Positions 13,218 through 16,759 of a DNA stretch of 52,461 nucleotides are shown piece by piece. This DNA is from Bacteroidota bacterium (GTDB taxonomy: Bacteria > Bacteroidota > Bacteroidia > B-17B0 > Aurantibacillaceae). The position numbers were made by a program, and so were the translations under genes. Below the pieces are notes generated by a model. That model was not told the origin of the DNA. It searched no databases and saw only the letters and a list, made by a program, of their open reading frames with translations. The stretch is from NCBI GenBank assembly GCA_013697245.1, contig JACCXH010000036.1, positions 1-52,461 of the forward strand, given 5' to 3'. Position 1 is the stretch's first letter; every line of letters starts with the position of its first letter.

Positions 13218-14618
13218 ATGAAAAAGGCAGGATATCTTTCTATTATAATTGGTGCAATTTTTTTTGCATTCGGTTTTTTGTTTGATAAGACTTTTTACTT
13301 TATAACAATTCTTCTTGCGTTTGCATTAATATCATCCGGGTTTTCTTTTTTTGCTTTTGATCTGTCCCTTAAAAGGCGAAAGCAAGTAGCGATGTTATTA
13401 CTAATTGTAAGTTTTTTTATTTTCTTGGCATATATGTTTTTTAAGAAGTACCATTTTTACGGTGCAAACATATTGGCGGTGTGTTTATTTTATACTTTTT
13501 CATTTGGTTTTTTACCTATCCATACAAAGAACCGAATAGAAAAATGGAGACACTATACGCGCAAAGCGTGGCATGCTTTTTTACTATCGCTAAGCGACTT
13601 ATTAAGCCTCGCCGCTATATTTGGAGGTATTCTTTTTAAAGTATTGCATTGGCCTATAGCCGATTCAATGATCTTGTTTGGTATGATCTTCCTGGGTATT
13701 ACTTTAATTGGATGGAACCGCTTATTTAGCCGCGAAATTGTTTTAAGAAAAGAGGCAGAAGATAAAGTAAAAGAAGCTTTTGCTGAATTAGAAGAAAAAA
13801 ATAAAGAGATCCTTGATAGTATTAATTATGCAAAACGTTTACAGGATGCTATTCTTCCTTCTGAAAAACTTTGGCTAAGTTATTTACCAAACAGTTTTGT
13901 TTTTTACAAGCCAAAAGACATTGTTGCCGGCGATTTTTATTGGATAGAGAAGGTCAGTCAAAAGTCGTTAGTCGACAGTCAACAGCCAGAAGATATTATC
14001 TTGTTTGCTGCTGCTGATTGTACGGGCCATGGAGTTCCCGGAGCTCTGGTAAGTGTTGTTTGCAGCAATGCTTTAAACAGAACAGTAAAAGAATTTAATA
14101 TTACTGAACCGGGAAAAATTTTAGATAAAGTACGCGAGCTGGTAATTGAAACATTCGAAAAAAGTGAGAACGAGGTAAAGGATGGGATGGATATTTCGTT
14201 GTGCGCTTTAAATATTAAAACCCTTCAATTAAAATGGGCAGGTGCAAATAATCCGCTTTGGTACCTTCAGTCCCCCTTGGAAGAAGTAGGTGAACAAAGG
14301 CCGGGGGATTCGGTCATGAGTGAAATAAAAGCAGATAAACAACCGATAGGAAAATACGCCGATGAAAAACCATTTACAACGCACACAATCCAATTAAAAA
14401 AAGGCGATATCATTTATGTTTTTACGGATGGTTACGCTGACCAATTTGGTGGACCAAAAGGAAAAAAATTTAAATACAAACAATTACTCGAACTTCTTGT
14501 CTCCTCTAAGAATAAACAATTAAGTGATCAAAAAAATATTTTAGGGTCAACATTTAAAAATTGGCGGGCTGCTCTTGATCAGGTGGACGATGTTTGTATT
14601 ATAGGAGTTAGGTTATAA
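13218..14618 (+). CDS. Membrane-anchored SpoIIE-type PP2C serine phosphatase
   Basis: A 466-residue protein. Residues 1-185 hold about six membrane helices, the last pair including 'LFKVLHWPIADS', which resembles the transmembrane hairpin of the gliding motor protein GldL. A charged coiled coil (about 185-210) leads to a SpoIIE/PP2C phosphatase domain with 'DIVAGDFYWIE', 'AAADCTGHGVPGALVS', 'LKWAGANNPLWY' and 'FTDGYADQFGG', which carry the metal-binding aspartates. Such enzymes dephosphorylate anti-anti-sigma factors or similar serine-phosphorylated partners; no partner gene is adjacent. Two short stretches, about 246-257 and 352-364, look like dispersed DNA repeats inserted in frame in surface loops. 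The gene has its own -7 box. Confidence 0.88.
   Translation: MKKAGYLSIIIGAIFFAFGFLFDKTFYFITILLAFALISSGFSFFAFDLSLKRRKQVAMLLLIVSFFIFLAYMFFKKYHFYGANILAVCLFYTFSFGFLPIHTKNRIEKWRHYTRKAWHAFLLSLSDLLSLAAIFGGILFKVLHWPIADSMILFGMIFLGITLIGWNRLFSREIVLRKEAEDKVKEAFAELEEKNKEILDSINYAKRLQDAILPSEKLWLSYLPNSFVFYKPKDIVAGDFYWIEKVSQKSLVDSQQPEDIILFAAADCTGHGVPGALVSVVCSNALNRTVKEFNITEPGKILDKVRELVIETFEKSENEVKDGMDISLCALNIKTLQLKWAGANNPLWYLQSPLEEVGEQRPGDSVMSEIKADKQPIGKYADEKPFTTHTIQLKKGDIIYVFTDGYADQFGGPKGKKFKYKQLLELLVSSKNKQLSDQKNILGSTFKNWRAALDQVDDVCIIGVRL
13956..13983 (+). repeat. Heptanucleotide AGTCNNN array inside the phosphatase gene
   Basis: AGTC begins at 13956, 13963, 13970 and 13977, an exact 7-base period. Since 7 is not a multiple of 3, the encoded residues (about 247-256, 'QKSLVDSQQP') are not repetitive. 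It lies between 'YWIEK' and 'FAAADCTGHG', where family members usually have only a few residues, so it looks like an inserted DNA repeat. Confidence 0.75.
14271..14308 (+). repeat. Palindromic repeat insert inside the phosphatase gene
   Basis: TCCCCC (14271-14276) and GGGGGA (14303-14308) form inverted ends around a 26-base centre beginning TTGGAAG. It encodes 'SPLEEVGEQRPGD' between 'NPLWYLQ' and 'ADKQPIGKY'. The Y-rich arm, TTGGA, R-rich arm layout matches small interspersed repeats I associate with Bacteroidota. Confidence 0.6.
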
Positions 14619-14635
14619 TACTAACCAACCTTTAA

Positions 14636-16759
14636 TTACTCTTTTATAAATTTTGTAACCGAAGTTTTATTACTTGCTTTTATTGTTAGGAAATAAACAC
14701 CTGTTTTTAATTCATTTACATTCAAAATAAAATTATTCAGATTTTCAGTTTCTTTTATAAGGATTGATCTGCCTAAAAGATCTTTAATTTCAATTTGTAA
14801 TTTTTCATTACTTATTTTATCTGACTTAATATTTAATTCTGAATTTGTAGGATTTGGATAAACAACTGTGGAATTAATATTGTTGTTTTTGGTATTTTCT
14901 TTAATTCCAACTGGACTAAATAAACTCCAAAGCTCTAATCCATTTACCCCATCATTTGCAAAAAAGAATAACCTATTATTTGAAATTACAGGCTTATAAA
15001 TACTATAAGCAGTTATGCCGGAATAAGGATATTCTATAAATGCTGAACCTGACCCCTGTTTAATGTCATAAACAATAGTTCCTGCATCTGTTCCATCAGT
15101 TTCGCAAAGTTCGTAGCCGTTGGAAGGGGTTGAAGCAAGAAAATAAGCCTTGTTATTTAAAAGTACATTTTGAAAATTCCCCCAGCCGTTAGTGACATTT
15201 GAATGAGGAATATTTTGTAAATTTCCGGTAAAATTTTGTTTAATGTGGCTGCTTAAATCTATATTTGAAGCTTCATATACTGAATTGGATTTAGTAAAAT
15301 AAATAAGTTTATTATTTATCACTGGAAAAGAATTTTGCAGCAAGGGTTCATTAAAAATTTTCGTGGTGTCGTAAAATGTGCCGCTTGGCGTTCCGTCAGA
15401 TAAAAGCATTCTTGTAAAATACAAAACAAAATTATTTTGAGTTATTTGTTTAAAAATTAAAGGTTCAAGATAGCCGGTCGTAGCCGCAGTAATTTGCTTA
15501 AATAATGAAATTGTTGCAACCGTATTATTTATTTCATAAATATAAATTAGGTCATTTGGTATGGCCGCTAAACCAACAACAAAATATATTTTGTTGTTAA
15601 ATTCAAAGGGTAAAGTTGATAAAGTTAGATTTCCATTTGGGATTTGTGAAGCATTGTTTTGAATTGTTCCAGCAAGGGTGCCATCAGTTTCGTAAAGAGT
15701 AAAAGCCGATCCTAAAGTAACGCTAAAATACATTTTGTTATTTAATTTTTTTACATTAAAATATGTTGATCCACTGCCAGGCGTAGCATCTTTTAGCATA
15801 AATGTTCCAGCATTTGTTCCATCACTCCTCCATATTTCAGATCCATGAATACCATCATTAGCGCTAAAAATAATAAGATTATTTAAAGTACCAATATATG
15901 AAATACTACTATTATTAGTACTGGGATTAATGTCTTTAACCTGTGTAGTTCCACCAGTGGTTCCATCAGTAATCCATAATTCATTACCTGTAAACTGTTC
16001 GTAGGCTGTAAAAAAAGTCTTACCGTTTATTGTCTTTAACACATAAGGATTTGAGCCTGTGATACCAAGGCAAATATCCTTAAGTAGATAAGTTCCTAGA
16101 TTAGTCCCATCTGAAAACCATAATTCAGAACCAGTAATTCCATCGTTGGCTACAAAACAAATACTATCTCCTGAGATTTGGTTTATTAATGCATAAGAGA
16201 TACCATTGTTTGTTCCTGGATTAATATCCTTTAATTGCATAGTTCCGGCAGTTGTCCCATCACTAACATATAATTCATTCCCTAAAATAGAATCGGTAGC
16301 ACTAAAGTAAAATTTATTTTTACATGCTTGTAAATTTTGTGGTAATGATGATTTGCTTCCTGAATTGATGTCTTTAAGAAGATTGTTACCGCCTGACGTG
16401 CCATTATTTACCCAAAGTTCTCTTCCATTTAATCCATCAGCCCCTGAATAATAAAAATTATTATTAAATTGAAGAAAAGCATAATAATCATAAATATTTG
16501 GAGTAATATCAAATGTGTTGCTAGTTGAACCATCACTATACCAATAATGATAATTGAAAGATGTAAAAAGAACACCATTTAAAGCTGGTCGCATTTCAGA
16601 AACAGATACGGTAGGCGCCTGATTTCCCCATGGTACTGGCTTGCTGAGCAAAACGCCATTTGCTGTGCCAGGAAAAATATCCATAACCATTTGTGGTTGC
16701 TGCGAAAACGAGTAGCTAAAAAAGTGACAAACGATTAAAAATAGAATAATTTTTCTCAT
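14636..16759 (-). CDS. ELWxxDGT-repeat secreted protein with T9SS type A sorting domain
   Basis: A 707-residue secreted protein. The signal peptide ends about residue 19 ('SYSFSQ'). It carries seven or eight ~45-residue repeats with the signature ELWxxDGT: 'ELWVNNGTSGG', 'ELYVSDGTTAG', 'ELWFSDGTNLG', 'ELWITDGTTGG', 'EIWRSDGTNAG', 'TLYETDGTLAG', 'ELCETDGTDAG'. These probably form a beta-propeller. The last ~75 residues ('VVYPNPTNSELNI...LKTGVYFLTI..VTKFIKE') are a type A sorting domain. ELWxxDGT proteins are common in Bacteroidota but lack a known function. It is convergent with the phosphatase gene, 17 bp apart. Confidence 0.92.
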   Translation of the reverse strand: MRKIILFLIVCHFFSYSFSQQPQMVMDIFPGTANGVLLSKPVPWGNQAPTVSVSEMRPALNGVLFTSFNYHYWYSDGSTSNTFDITPNIYDYYAFLQFNNNFYYSGADGLNGRELWVNNGTSGGNNLLKDINSGSKSSLPQNLQACKNKFYFSATDSILGNELYVSDGTTAGTMQLKDINPGTNNGISYALINQISGDSICFVANDGITGSELWFSDGTNLGTYLLKDICLGITGSNPYVLKTINGKTFFTAYEQFTGNELWITDGTTGGTTQVKDINPSTNNSSISYIGTLNNLIIFSANDGIHGSEIWRSDGTNAGTFMLKDATPGSGSTYFNVKKLNNKMYFSVTLGSAFTLYETDGTLAGTIQNNASQIPNGNLTLSTLPFEFNNKIYFVVGLAAIPNDLIYIYEINNTVATISLFKQITAATTGYLEPLIFKQITQNNFVLYFTRMLLSDGTPSGTFYDTTKIFNEPLLQNSFPVINNKLIYFTKSNSVYEASNIDLSSHIKQNFTGNLQNIPHSNVTNGWGNFQNVLLNNKAYFLASTPSNGYELCETDGTDAGTIVYDIKQGSGSAFIEYPYSGITAYSIYKPVISNNRLFFFANDGVNGLELWSLFSPVGIKENTKNNNINSTVVYPNPTNSELNIKSDKISNEKLQIEIKDLLGRSILIKETENLNNFILNVNELKTGVYFLTIKASNKTSVTKFIKE

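Follow-up and report, generated by a model that had tools for sequence, protein, structure and literature searches.

A 7-nt-periodic AGTC array inserted in frame in a SpoIIE-type phosphatase loop: a probable coding member of a mostly intergenic, often palindromic repeat family

A heptad array in the SpoIIE domain of a phosphatase gene

The window, a 52,461-nt stretch of a Bacteroidota genome, carries a gene for a 466-aa SpoIIE/PP2C-type phosphatase (Table 1). A profile search placed PF07228 (SpoIIE) at residues 261–465 (E 9.1e-19), i.e. at the C-terminus, and a sequence alignment to PDB 6k4e confirmed the conserved motifs of the domain. Single-sequence structure prediction of the protein gave a pLDDT of 41, too low for use. 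The source genome has 88 matches to the phosphatase region, 54 of which span most of the SpoIIE domain. On the opposite strand, a 707-aa secreted-looking protein (14636–16759, −), with a tail that presumably resembles a type IX sorting domain, is encoded between the phosphatase and a TauE-like gene in the window; the latter two genes are directly adjacent in loci L009, L010 and L011.

Table 1. Coordinates of the phosphatase gene and its heptad array in the window
Feature	Position	Strand	Basis
SpoIIE/PP2C-type phosphatase gene, carrier of the array	13218..14618	+	open reading frame, 466 aa
Conserved IVAGDFYWIE, N-terminal side of the loop	13920..13949	+	orthologue alignment; sequence alignment to PDB 6k4e
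AGTC core, four copies 7 nt apart, with AAA/GTT/GAC between	13956..13980	+	direct reading, pattern counts, recoding test
In-frame insertion of 33 nt (11 codons), SQKSLVDSQQP	13956..13988	+	alignment with the G019 and G006 orthologues
Degenerate fifth core AGCC, in register	13984..13987	+	direct reading
Conserved DIILFAAADCTGHGVPG, C-terminal side of the loop	13992..14042	+	orthologue alignment; sequence alignment to PDB 6k4e

Between the codons of GDFYW and DCTGHG the loop DNA reads AGTC AAA AGTC GTT AGTC GAC AGTC AAC AGCC, with exact AGTC cores starting at 13956, 13963, 13970 and 13977, precisely where a preliminary description had placed them, in the coding frame between conserved SpoIIE motifs. 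Its units are not near-identical, the spacers AAA, GTT and GAC being different. The triple pattern AGTCNNNAGTCNNNAGTC has two overlapping matches in the window, both at the array, and none in 100 dinucleotide shuffles of the window (mean 0.00, maximum 0); AGTCNNNAGTC occurs three times, always at the array, with 0.22 expected. The 7-nt self-match of the loop was 0.48, compared with a mean of 0.28 in 2000 synonymous recodings (P = 0.0005), and 0 of 2000 base shuffles reached it. The array thus has a 7-nt period beyond chance, as heptameric tandem repeats do, and this period exceeds what the encoded amino acids dictate. A protein-level explanation of the period was ruled out by the synonymous recoding null. 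The earlier remark that such an array keeps no codon period has to be amended, since three heptad units make 21 nt, or seven codons, after which the run is back in codon register, and the length of the insert is divisible by three.

The array is an in-frame insertion in a loop of variable length

The window copy (L008) has orthologues in G021 (L009), G019 (L010) and G006; the orthologues L009, L010 and L011 are neighbours of the TauE-like gene that is also found near the window copy. In two of the three syntenic orthologues, those of G019 and G006, the loop has the canonical 10 residues, and alignment with them leaves the window loop 11 residues longer. The G021 orthologue has 17 additional loop residues, likewise with heptads. 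A homologue gap of 30–40 nt had been predicted at the array and one of 33 nt was found (13956–13988); the opposing possibility, that homologues would encode the same residues by different DNA, does not apply, as the G019 and G006 orthologues lack these residues altogether. In the gene tree the G006 and G019 copies, which lack the insert, group with the G021 copy, which has one, and the window copy falls outside, so that either two gains or one gain and two losses are needed.

A census found the loop in 62 of 69 SpoIIE loci, giving 63 rows (L008/L262 and L261/L263 are genes counted twice). Its length is exactly 10 residues in 46 rows and longer in 17. Among 16 distinct loops of more than 10 aa, there were five whose 7-nt period exceeded the synonymous null (P < 0.01), namely L008 (the window), L009, L014, L256 and L258, and AGTC is present in all five. 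Moreover, AGTCAA[AG]AGTC was found repeatedly in SpoIIE loops of G000 (the source genome), G007 and G021. Relative to the syntenic orthologues, the array is an in-frame insertion in a phosphatase loop of variable length; the 11-residue peptide itself probably has no function.

Related arrays lie mostly between genes

Genome-wide, the triple pattern yielded seven overlapping matches at three sites and its reversed control none. The other two sites are intergenic, each no more than 60 nt away from a start codon, which bears out the earlier expectation of such arrays between genes. The pattern occurs in 19 of 40 genus genomes, the source genome included, and hand summation gives 144 matches to it and 11 to the reversed control. 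Selected by the exact AGTC pattern, 61 of 81 genus arrays are intergenic and 20 fall in ORFs, some of them short and doubtful; each genome's copy of an orthologous site entered the count on its own, so these numbers are not independent. The arrays are thus mainly intergenic, as heptameric repeats are, both in the source genome (two of three sites) and in the genus.

Among 60 intergenic sites, a further one having no right flank, 40 lie between co-directional, 17 between convergent and three between divergent genes, compared with 292, 54 and 86 background gene pairs in 400-kb samples of two genomes. Convergent pairs were favoured over divergent ones (P = 1.5e-4), a placement of the REP type, i.e. 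co-directional or convergent and rarely divergent. A 400-kb sample of the source genome showed no enrichment of period-7 sites (seven versus 4–7 in five Markov resamplings); the same scan of G001 returned 12 sites, eight of them intergenic, versus 1–5 in the null. On a wider scale, a four-unit pattern occurs in at least 116 stretches of named genomes from many phyla, including Bacteroidota and Cyanobacteria, and the AGTC type was found in 100 of 296 genomes of the phylum. As the reversed control CTGA is common at phylum scale too, the AGTC core is local and the 7-nt period general. At gathering thresholds, Rfam matched only rRNA (in L237) among eight loci. The long intergenic array L234 (G012:C83:731–879) comprises 22 AGTC cores, 5 in one run and 17 in another, with varying spacers, and many different spacers were seen among the genus arrays.

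Many arrays are arms of period-7 palindromes

GACT was counted 71 times, at 27 of 61 sites, in the 100 nt on the downstream side of the AGTC arm, and only twice, at two sites, upstream (P = 1.6e-6). Because inverted GACT units follow at these 27 sites, many arrays are arms of period-7 palindromes of the form (AGTCNNN)n, loop, (NNNGACT)m. In the SpoIIE loops L009, L014 and L256, too, inverted NNACTGC/GACT units can be seen by eye after the AGTC arm; unlike these two-arm in-gene copies, the window copy consists of the AGTC arm only. Folding was no better than in shuffles for the coding palindrome L014 (z 0.13) and for the source genome's intergenic site L003 (z 0.61).

Cores differ between genomes at the ccmB–ccmC gap

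One intergenic array of the source genome is flanked by genes that we take, by motif, to be ccmB and ccmC. The gap was matched in 38 of 40 genomes, giving 30 loci, of which 23 were used: four had no recognisable ccmB end, and those of G050, G011 and G054 were left out. The loci of G047, G022 and G018 were cut at an earlier start. Fifteen of the 23 had a period-7 z of at least 2.1, and in 14 of these the fold z was −2.4 or lower. A hairpin built of TAGTCG/CGACTA steps is common to six aligned AGTC-type gaps and folds better than shuffles (z −2.1 to −3.6); its covariation is weak (term −0.33, both-side changes in 3 of 20 pairs). Of eight gaps that lack heptads, three fold as well as the heptad-bearing ones. 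These heptad-free gaps, L374, L371 and L373 (G013, G046 and G018), fold better than shuffles, so something other than heptads may maintain a hairpin in them.

In other genomes the same gap shows, by eye, other cores: GTTA in G003 and G016, TAGTGTT-like in G047 and G022, and AGTT in G045. Genome-wide, G003 has 62 GTTA-type matches (24 from two long arrays) and G016 has 19, both with no AGTC type; AGTC and GTTA matches number 20 and 0 in G021, 25 and 2 in G012, and 7 and 0 in the source genome. Both types occur in G001 (27 and 24), and G022, with its TAGT-like gap, has 4 and 19. Array cores thus differ between genomes, even at one orthologous gap, and the agreement of the ccm-gap core with the genome-wide core is suggestive and incomplete.

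Heptads in LeuRS and PriA loops

Heptads were also found in loops of two genes that, judged by motif, presumably encode LeuRS and PriA; a profile search of LeuRS matched PF13603. The heptads of the LeuRS loop are of the GACT type in G006, G021, G019 and G012, and have different cores elsewhere. With 28 of 30 loci matched, period 7 reached P < 0.01 in 6 of 28 LeuRS loops, versus 0–2 for other periods; the AGTC-type loops of G006 and G021 had P values of only 0.10 and 0.02, and the source genome's LeuRS loop gave no heptad signal (P 0.88). PriA was found in 26 of 29 loci, and among the 17 with loops of at least 20 aa that were analysed, seven reached P < 0.01 at period 7, versus 0–1 at periods 5, 6, 8, 9 and 10. 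For the source genome's PriA loop, 0 of 2000 synonymous recodings attained its period-7 score. This loop (L381, G000:C43:19472–19936) has 47 residues and a non-AGTC core, e.g. GGACACA. Both arms are visible by eye in the PriA loop of G029.

Comparison with known repeats

The available text on TAACTGA heptamers (MacGregor 2015, PMC4679880) describes mainly intergenic sets, with few in ORFs, in some Cyanobacteria and five Bacteroidetes; they are direct copies of one word, with one indirect repeat and other heptamers sometimes mixed in. For the GGGAATC sets of Xanthomonas and Nostoc, the same gene pairs flank repeats of varying sequence, as far as the available portion of PMC4692102 tells. According to these two papers, many bacteria favour heptads among long simple repeats, and polymerase slippage has been proposed for them. 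Our arrays resemble these repeats, as there described, in their seven-nt unit and in lying mostly between genes, but differ from such one-word copies in combining a 4-nt core with variable spacers, in having many inverted ends and in occurring in frame inside conserved enzyme loops.

REP elements are, in the available text of PMC3733652, short palindromes tagged with GTAG or CGTC that occupy co-directional or convergent gaps and in some cases genes. Short palindromes, the same gene-pair placement, some intragenic copies and a tetranucleotide tag are shared features, judging from that text (PMC3733652). In contrast, the arms here have period 7, the core is AGTC or another, and a tyrosine transposase partner is inconsistent; no 20–40 nt palindrome tagged GTAG or CGTC was seen, the cores being AGTC or GTTA and the arms several heptads long. 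Rickettsia palindromic elements are palindromic repeat DNA in frame within protein genes. The window array likewise is an in-frame insertion in a protein gene, but those elements are longer and conserved in sequence, whereas the arms here are degenerate heptads and the window copy, with one arm, is not a palindrome. The arrays are a variant of known heptameric or REP-like repeats. In the available portions of the heptameric-repeat and REP literature searched, palindromes of degenerate heptads whose core is specific to a genome are not described, nor are in-frame heptad copies in SpoIIE, LeuRS or PriA loops.

Origin of the array

We consider it probable (roughly 0.6) that the array is an in-frame coding member of this mostly intergenic, often palindromic 7-nt-periodic family and arose as a 33-nt loop insertion. 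The insertion lies in a turn between two conserved phosphatase motifs, where length varies, and may have survived because 33 nt preserve the frame and no spacer here brings the TAG of an NNT-AGTC junction into the reading frame. Most likely, a single process makes or spreads arrays in intergenic DNA, and copies occasionally land or grow in tolerant loops. The intergenic copies would be transcribed REP-like hairpins, and the coding ones incidental products of the process that generates or spreads them. Regarding the earlier proposal that an intergenic repeat moved into the gene, the in-frame insertion, the variable loop and the intergenic relatives support an intergenic-type repeat in a tolerant loop, but movement from an intergenic site stays conjectural; no transposase or target duplication was identified for the arrays. 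A bolder reading, which we regard as doubtful, is that heptad palindromes are phylum-wide and the 4-nt core is a genome dialect, rewritten in concert at orthologous sites by a trans-acting copying system, which would also place in-frame copies in loops of essential enzymes (LeuRS, PriA) and of signalling phosphatases.

Several other origins were weighed. A single ancient insertion into an ancestral SpoIIE paralogue, followed by losses or by gene conversion among paralogues, is possible, if on balance unlikely. It would account for the ATCAGTCAA start common to L009, L014, L254 and L256 (the window has GTCAGTCAA), for the ACTGCCAACTGC[AG]GACTTAAT common to L009 and L014, and for the two changes that heptad-labelled rows need on the tree versus an average of 5.5 after shuffling (none of 500 shuffles went so low), a test that compared only seven heptad-labelled with nine other-insert rows, with labelled L254 and L264 non-significant for period 7. 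Yet the G019 copy (L010) is very close to that of G021 (L009) and has a 10-aa loop, which would demand a precise loss. Rather unlikely, too, is that local 7-nt replication slippage expanded a tolerant-loop sequence with no movement, the intergenic likeness reflecting the same slippage everywhere. Slippage has been proposed for heptamers, which many bacteria favour as long simple repeats (PMC4679880, PMC4692102), one and the same LeuRS or PriA loop can have different cores from genome to genome, and some heptad loops show no length change (LeuRS of G001 and G010, 24 aa). However, it explains the period but in its simple form does not make two-arm polarity, and the core stays constant while spacers differ (22 cores in L234, where arrays were chosen by the exact AGTC pattern); AGTCAA[AG]AGTC shared by the SpoIIE loops of three genomes also argues against it.

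That the arrays are REP elements mobilised by a REP-associated tyrosine transposase (Y1_Tnp) is very unlikely. Their placement resembles that of REPs in the available text (PMC3733652), the source genome has four Y1_Tnp matches, and by hand count the transposase is present in 16 of 19 genomes with AGTC arrays versus 13 of 21 without; but no match was found in G006 (16 AGTC matches) or G016 (19 GTTA matches), although a transposase may have been lost in the past, G008 and G014 have it with no AGTC and with 0 and 3 GTTA matches, and a GTAG or CGTC tag is absent. Least credible is an ordinary loop whose period comes from a repetitive peptide or chance: the peptide is itself repetitive and so accounts for some of the signal (mean of 0.28 in synonymous recodings), yet the synonymous null (P = 0.0005) and the dinucleotide shuffles (0 of 100) contradict it.

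Heptamers are known to be over-represented in bacteria. One orthologous gap with changing palindromic cores and the recurrent in-frame heptads in conserved-enzyme loops are concrete places for studying how the arrays originate and whether some factor recognises their core. An unusual loop peptide in a protein of this sort can stem from a repeat in the DNA and need not be a feature that evolved at the protein level.

Longer in-frame inserts in LeuRS

In L342–L346 (G007, G008, G011, G029 and G037) the same LeuRS loop exceeds the canonical form by 137–159 residues, in frame. The available portions of the literature searched contain no description of such a DUF559-type insert. The L342 insert, the one scanned, contains a DUF559 domain (PF04480, E 2.1e-35), and could possibly be a homing-endonuclease-like element in an essential gene. 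The L343 insert is flanked by peptides such as NPSPKEKG and SPPLLRRGAGGE, repeat-encoded in appearance.
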